In this document: positions 17,726 through 18,712 of the stretch, piece after piece
How positions within the stretch are numbered: the first letter of the stretch is position 1
How the letters are laid out: every line of letters starts with the position of its first letter
NCBI RefSeq assembly: GCF_001049755.1
Contig: NZ_CVLB01000001.1
Span: 1,102,091-1,166,090, forward strand
Direction of reading: 5' to 3'
Source: Brachyspira suanatina
Lineage (GTDB): Bacteria; Spirochaetota; Brachyspiria; Brachyspirales; Brachyspiraceae
DNA length: 64,000 nt
Notes under the pieces: model-generated
What the model saw: the letters and a program-made list of their open reading frames with translations, nothing else
The model's database searches: none
What the model was told of the DNA's origin: nothing
Position numbers and translations under genes: made by a program

Positions 17726-18712
17726 ATGGAATCAAATAAAAAAGATGTTAAATTTATGCTCCCTATGGATTTACTTGGAGGCAGAGAAAATATAGTAAAA
17801 GTAAACAACTGTGCTACTAGATTAAGACTAGAAGTAAAAGATGCAAATAAAGTAAATGCTGAAGAAATAAAGAAATATTATCCTGTTGTACAGAAAATAA
17901 ATGATACAGAAGTTCATATAGTAGTTGGTACAGATGCAAGCGAACTTGCTGAATCTTTAAGAAGAATAATAGCTTTTGATTATGATCCTTCTAGTATGGC
18001 TATGACTCTTATTCCTTTGGTTGGAGGAAGAGAAAATATAGTAAAAGTAAATAATTGTGCTACTAGAGTTAGACTTGAAGTTGTGAATGCTGATAAAGTT
18101 AATGAAGAGAAATATTATCCTGTAATACAGAAAATAAGTGCTAAAGAGGTTCATGTATTAGTAGGCACTAAGGCTTCTGAGGTTGCTAATGAATTATCAA
18201 AGATTTTAAATATCTCTGACAATAATACAAATACAAACTATTCTTATAGAGCTTGGCTTCTTTTTCCTATGCTTGGTGGAATAGAAAATGTTGTAAAAAT
18301 AAATAATTGTGCTACTAGATTAAGACTTGAATTAAAAGATGCTAATAAAGTAAATATTGAAGAAATAAAGAAATATTATCCTGCTGTACAGAAAATAAGT
18401 GATACAGAGCTTCATATAGTAATTGGTACGGATGCAAGTTTATTTGCTGATGCTTTTAGAAAAATATTTGAAAGCCATAAATTCAAAACAGCTTTAATTC
18501 TTCCATTGGTAGGCGGTATAGATAATATAACTAAAGTTACTAATTGTGCTACTAGATTAAGATTAGAAATTAAAGATATTAATAAAGTAGATATTGAAAG
18601 TATTAAGAAATATTATCCTGCTGTTGAAAAGATAAGTGATCATGAGATTCATATTGTAGTTGGTATTGATGCTAATTTACTTGCCAATGAATTTAAAAAA
18701 TTTGTAATTTAA
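17726..18712 (+). CDS. Four tandem PTS EIIB domains, no permease domain
   Basis: A 328-residue soluble protein made almost wholly of four copies of a glucose/GlcNAc-type EIIB domain of about 80 residues. Each copy has GG-x-EN-x-x-K-x-NNCATR and ends with an IVVGTDAS-like strand. The phosphorylatable cysteines are C29, C111, C195 and C274, and all four are kept. Domain 2 is slightly shortened in its middle. There is no EIIC, EIIA, DNA-binding or membrane segment. It could be a phosphate sink, a relay or a regulator linked to the neighbouring PTS; this is inference. The start has TGAGG upstream. It has its own terminator. Confidence 0.88.
   Translation: MESNKKDVKFMLPMDLLGGRENIVKVNNCATRLRLEVKDANKVNAEEIKKYYPVVQKINDTEVHIVVGTDASELAESLRRIIAFDYDPSSMAMTLIPLVGGRENIVKVNNCATRVRLEVVNADKVNEEKYYPVIQKISAKEVHVLVGTKASEVANELSKILNISDNNTNTNYSYRAWLLFPMLGGIENVVKINNCATRLRLELKDANKVNIEEIKKYYPAVQKISDTELHIVIGTDASLFADAFRKIFESHKFKTALILPLVGGIDNITKVTNCATRLRLEIKDINKVDIESIKKYYPAVEKISDHEIHIVVGIDANLLANEFKKFVI

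Follow-up and report, generated by a model that had tools for sequence, protein, structure and literature searches.

The closest described relatives of the protein treated here are EIIB domains (PF00367, TIGR00826) of the glucose (Glc) family of the phosphotransferase system (PTS), known from NagE and PtsG. FruA of the fructose PTS has tandem IIB domains in one chain (B'-B-C; PMC2405797). Both IIBs are needed for full activity of E. coli FruA, according to a passage in PMC2405797 that cites Charbit et al. 1996. In some EII systems, IIA, IIB and IIC are separate polypeptides (PMC11393339). The EIIB of E. coli PtsG in contact with Mlc (PDB 3bp8) is a precedent for a dephosphorylated EIIB as a protein-binding signal. 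The window analysed here is a stretch of 64,000 nucleotides from Brachyspira suanatina (GCF_001049755.1, contig NZ_CVLB01000001.1, positions 1,102,091 to 1,166,090). It contains a tetra-EIIB gene, named TetB. TetB is a soluble chain of Glc-family EIIB domains only, without a transporter part. It is apparently undescribed in the literature searched, in which no paper on a TetB-type protein was found.

TetB shares the fold, the phosphocysteine and the CxxRxR motif with the EIIBs of NagE and PtsG, and the NagE EIIBs of Brachyspira are its nearest relatives. It differs by the absence of an EIIC, by four copies in a soluble chain and by a histidine in place of an invariant glutamine. FruA also has tandem IIBs in one chain, but is a permease with fructose-family IIBs in two copies only; TetB is not of this type, as no tandem-EIIB protein has a IIC. 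The EIIB that binds Mlc is membrane-anchored in E. coli, and no Mlc-like partner is co-conserved with TetB. The gene and its repeats are:

17726..18712, + strand: tetra-EIIB gene TetB, a single open reading frame of 328 amino acids (aa) with four PF00367 stretches
17759..17971, + strand: EIIB repeat B1, about aa 12-82; phosphocysteine Cys29, His64 replaces Gln
18005..18211, + strand: EIIB repeat B2, about aa 94-162; Cys111, His143; B1, B3 and B4 are three residues longer
18257..18472, + strand: EIIB repeat B3, about aa 178-249; Cys195, His230
18494..18703, + strand: EIIB repeat B4, about aa 257-326; Cys274, His309

The 328-codon reading frame is not interrupted by a stop. Pfam recognised PTS_EIIB four times, with an E-value of 4e-55 for the whole protein. 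No domain other than EIIB, and no EIIC domain PF02378, scored above the Pfam and NCBIfam cut-offs. The only NCBIfam match above cut-off was the EIIB_glc domain model TIGR00826. Other NCBIfam matches covered EIIB portions of Glc-family permeases and were far below the whole-permease cut-offs; the NagE equivalog TIGR01998 gave 183.6 bits against a cut-off of 553.2, outside the range of a permease. An AlphaFold2 model showed four successive EIIB folds (mean predicted local distance difference test, pLDDT, 80.5; predicted template modelling score, pTM, 0.63). It was built from 19 orthologs, and the arrangement of its domains relative to each other is unreliable. Its top PDB matches were the EIIBGlc structures 1o2f, 3bp3 and 3bp8 (EIIBGlc alone, with IIAGlc or with Mlc). 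Profile, fold and the cysteine with CxxRxR place TetB among the Glc-family EIIBs; the glutamine site does not. An earlier sequence-only reading of this DNA had described four tandem EIIB domains with phosphocysteines at 29, 111, 195 and 274 and without a permease, EIIA or DNA-binding part. Reading frame, Pfam and model confirm the four domains, the cysteine positions are exact, and only EIIB passed the cut-offs. Its general statement that EIIBs normally come singly with an EIIC does not hold, given the tandem IIBs of FruA and the separate IIB polypeptides of other systems.

The active site separates the tandem repeats from other EIIBs. In 20 tandem proteins with 74 repeats altogether, every repeat retains the cysteine and both arginines of CxxRxR, and all four cysteines of TetB are kept in every relative, where their loss would have spoken against the sequence-only reading. 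In a multiple alignment, the glutamine of the 'VQVIVG' strand is a histidine in 74/74 tandem repeats and a glutamine in 38/38 other EIIBs, among them transport EIIBs from B. suanatina and from other spirochaetes. Glutamine is also present in an additional B. suanatina EIIB that was examined apart from the 38. The site aligns with Q456 in E. coli PtsG; three more EIIBs, from Bacillota and Fusobacterium, share this glutamine. The literature searched held no source on the role of a glutamine near the EIIB active site.

The sole histidine outside the tandem repeats was found in another spirochaete family, in the inner EIIB of an EIIC-EIIB-EIIB protein (genome G316; L048 1-1989 and L074). It shares the adjacent valine-to-alanine change found in most tandem repeats. 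Here the histidine domain is an extra inner EIIB on a NagE-type EIIC and, unlike TetB, is fused to this EIIC and to an outer Gln-type EIIB. A gene for an EIIA-HPr-EI fusion lies directly after it. A different single-chain architecture was observed in another spirochaete (L064 1037-4567): a PTS protein of 1176 aa unites EIIC and EIIB with an EI-like part and carries an EIIA at its C-terminus, and the open reading frame upstream has an HPr-like end.

TetB may be a soluble multivalent EIIB phosphoprotein that is charged by the free EIIA (Crr) and buffers or reads out Crr phosphorylation. We give this reading a probability of roughly 0.4. Crr would phosphorylate the cysteines, up to four per molecule. 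The repeats would hold the phosphate and hand it back to Crr, with slow or absent transfer to sugar. By competing with NagE for Crr-P, TetB would set or buffer the Crr-P/Crr ratio that supplies NagE and the genome's other EIICBs without EIIA. Via Crr, it could also influence any regulatory target. The sequence-only reading had likewise put forward buffering or reporting of PTS flux, or transfer to a target other than sugar; both are conjectural. At neutral pH, phosphocysteine is chemically stable enough for such storage: a model peptide was hydrolysed to a minor extent only within 24 h (PMC5025809). The histidine beside the active site and the absence of an EIIC suggest that the TetB domains do not primarily phosphorylate sugar. 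All nine EIIC proteins (PF02378) of the genome carry an EIIB; TetB therefore fills no gap and completes no split permease, and a role as EIIB of an orphan EIIC is excluded.

The neighbours agree with the matching EIICB and free EIIA described by the sequence-only reading:

16000..17460, + strand: EIICB of the N-acetylglucosamine (GlcNAc) type, NagE; its own EIIB is Gln-type; TIGR01998 633 bits, cut-off 553
15287..15751, - strand: free EIIA-Glc (Crr-like); the genome has three EIIA-Glc domains, of which no other is free

TetB adjoins nagE in 15 of the 18 genomes with TetB (two of these inferred across contig breaks). In the remaining three, it is located at an ftsK-tetB-msmK site away from nagE. 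Crr adjoins nagE in 18/18 genomes with TetB and in 0/8 without, and is the only constant partner of TetB. The NtrB-NtrC-Crr arrangement was present in all six TetB-less genomes checked and is therefore ancestral, so that the change was the movement of nagE beside Crr. In the window, the NtrB-NtrC pair lies at 12699-15233, and it is convergent with Crr across the genus Brachyspira.

An MsmK-type sugar ABC ATPase is adjacent to TetB or within 9 kb in 14/18 genomes. A functional pair of TetB and MsmK was rejected despite this linkage: the B. suanatina genome has no MsmK at E<=1e-100. In the hampsonii group (L045 7428-12780; L114), a sugar cluster with two Gfo/Idh oxidoreductases, a sugar epimerase-like gene and an ABC binding protein with permeases lies beside TetB, with msmK 8-9 kb off. 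In one genome (G007; L109 5381-6841), NagE is interrupted roughly 124 codons from its start by an in-frame stop, for which sequencing error and strain mutation are indistinguishable; the adjoining TetB is intact and 93% identical to that of the window. The upstream region of nagE (15905-15941) contains a perfect 11-base inverted repeat, GTATAATACTT / AAGTATTATAC, a possible operator. Elsewhere in the window (21776-24418), two adjacent lipoprotein-like genes of 332 and 495 aa have near-identical N-terminal parts, an apparent local duplication.

TetB has transcription signals of its own:

17485..17515, + strand: intrinsic terminator of nagE, an 11-pair stem followed by a T run; -17.0 kcal/mol, z -5.5
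17521..17547, + strand: partial second copy of the promoter-like element, 81% identical, directly 3' of the nagE terminator
17666..17698, + strand: conserved promoter-like element TAGAAATAAAATAAATATTATGTTAGTATTTAT, 33 bases, about 30 bp 5' of the start codon
18716..18750, + strand: intrinsic terminator of TetB; -20.6 kcal/mol, z -5.8

The 33-base element is nearly identical upstream of all 18 tandem-EIIB genes examined there, relocated copies and paralogs included. It occurs once in the window and had no match in 100 shuffles. The promoter-like element and the two terminators place TetB outside the nagE transcript, most likely as its own transcription unit. The 81% copy is possibly the scar of a lost paralog; two genomes carry a paralog at this position between nagE and TetB. 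No RNA families were found. An origin of TetB as an EIICB fragment or old fusion, which would have undermined the sequence-only reading, is ruled out by the absence of an EIIC remnant and the separate transcription signals.

TetB orthologs are present in 18 of 26 Brachyspira genomes; the eight genomes without TetB retain NagE. All relatives with organism names belong to Brachyspira. A genome-by-genome scan of 393 spirochaete genomes at 1e-12 gave matches only in Brachyspira and in the distant EIIC-EIIB-EIIB protein, and the absence elsewhere applies to these sampled spirochaetes. No tandem-EIIB protein of phages or plasmids was among the matches listed. Single-EIIB open reading frames of 86 aa in two TetB-less genomes (L105, L106) were rejected as relatives; they are Gln-type and belong to a different subfamily. 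Most orthologs have four domains and one has three (G018). Extra paralogs have two (G009) or three (G015).

Within the window TetB, the repeats are 52-69% identical. In a repeat tree, most B1, B2, B3 and B4 sequences cluster by position, with some inter-repeat exchange in single lineages; the four-part order is therefore older than the species. In a tree from which the histidine site and the neighbouring V/A site were left out, the tandem repeats formed one clade (100/100), and together with Brachyspira NagE they were on one side of a branch (85/93). The tandem repeats are a single clade that nests with the Brachyspira NagE EIIB. The two EIIB domains of the EIIC-EIIB-EIIB protein formed a pair (85/57). 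This pairing speaks for two origins of the histidine; a single origin of His-type EIIBs was not rejected by the approximately unbiased (AU) test (p-AU 0.36). On the NagE tree, the presence of TetB needs two changes, and one change is also compatible. With one or two changes, a single origin of TetB with little gain or loss afterwards is likely.

Selection on TetB is purifying. Orthologs from 11 genomes gave a median omega (dN/dS) of 0.28 (range 0.13-0.40), compared with 0.10 for NagE and 0.09 for Crr; TetB is constrained and yet evolves faster than its neighbours. The sequence-only reading had taken the divergence of the repeats as proof of selection. Selection itself is upheld by omega and the kept cysteines. 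The 52-69% identity alone is no proof, because the repeats exchange sequence.

A Crr-charged store or sensor would accommodate all of these facts: the charging chemistry, the lost glutamine, the absence of an EIIC, the multiple copies, the own expression and the constant Crr. Several points weigh against it. The omega of TetB exceeds those of NagE and Crr roughly threefold. The joint pattern of TetB and Crr-nagE may be a single evolutionary event, in which case the co-occurrence is not independent evidence. The second arginine of CxxRxR in E. coli reportedly serves sugar transfer, not charging; its retention would suit an EIIB that continues to work for an EIIC.

The kept arginine sustains the strongest rival, in which TetB is a transport EIIB acting in trans: more charged EIIB would be available locally to NagE or another EIIC, and sugar would be phosphorylated in trans, in the manner of separate EIIB subunits of other PTS. 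Repeats derived from or nested with the NagE EIIB, the adjacency to nagE in most genomes and both arginines in every repeat fit this role. NagE and all other EIICs own an intact EIIB, however, and the invariant glutamine is lost in every repeat. TetB is also found away from nagE in three genomes and has a separate terminator and promoter-like element. Trans-acting transport is considered rather unlikely.

A somewhat less probable role is that of a regulator binder. Dephosphorylated repeats would hold a transcription factor or another target and release it on charging, and the repeats would give avidity. E. coli EIICB-Glc sequesters Mlc when dephosphorylated (PMC3901232), and a ROK repressor is present in the B. 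suanatina genome. Both the ROK repressor and the LicT-type PRD are missing from several TetB genomes, one of which has no PRD at all; neither is therefore a general target of TetB. Presence and absence do not support TetB as a dedicated donor for PRD antiterminators or as a ROK decoy. Crr beside NtrB-NtrC throughout the genus recalls Vibrio vulnificus, in which dephospho-IIAGlc activates an NtrC-type regulator (PMC9040800), but TetB-less genomes also have this arrangement. The linkage to the MsmK-type ATPase would also fit this role, yet B. suanatina keeps TetB without it. That TetB is a relaxed duplicate with little function, prone to form repeats and growing or shrinking by recombination, is very improbable: the variable two to four domains, the sequence exchange, the elevated omega and the promoter scar would fit, but no decayed copy was seen, cysteine, both arginines and histidine are kept in every repeat of every ortholog, and the promoter-like element is kept across genomes and sites.

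A broader proposal is doubtful at this stage. The His-type domains could be a second functional class of EIIB, perhaps with two origins, which accepts phosphate from EIIA, does not transfer it to sugar and serves as a capacitor or sensor of the PTS. The single-residue signature of histidine for glutamine makes the role of TetB readily testable. The genus includes pig pathogens, and NagE was detected in proteomes of pig-pathogenic Brachyspira (PMC4955376); the use of GlcNAc is of interest in these organisms. PTS regulation is usually framed around EIIA and HPr, to which TetB would add storage or signalling by phosphocysteine.
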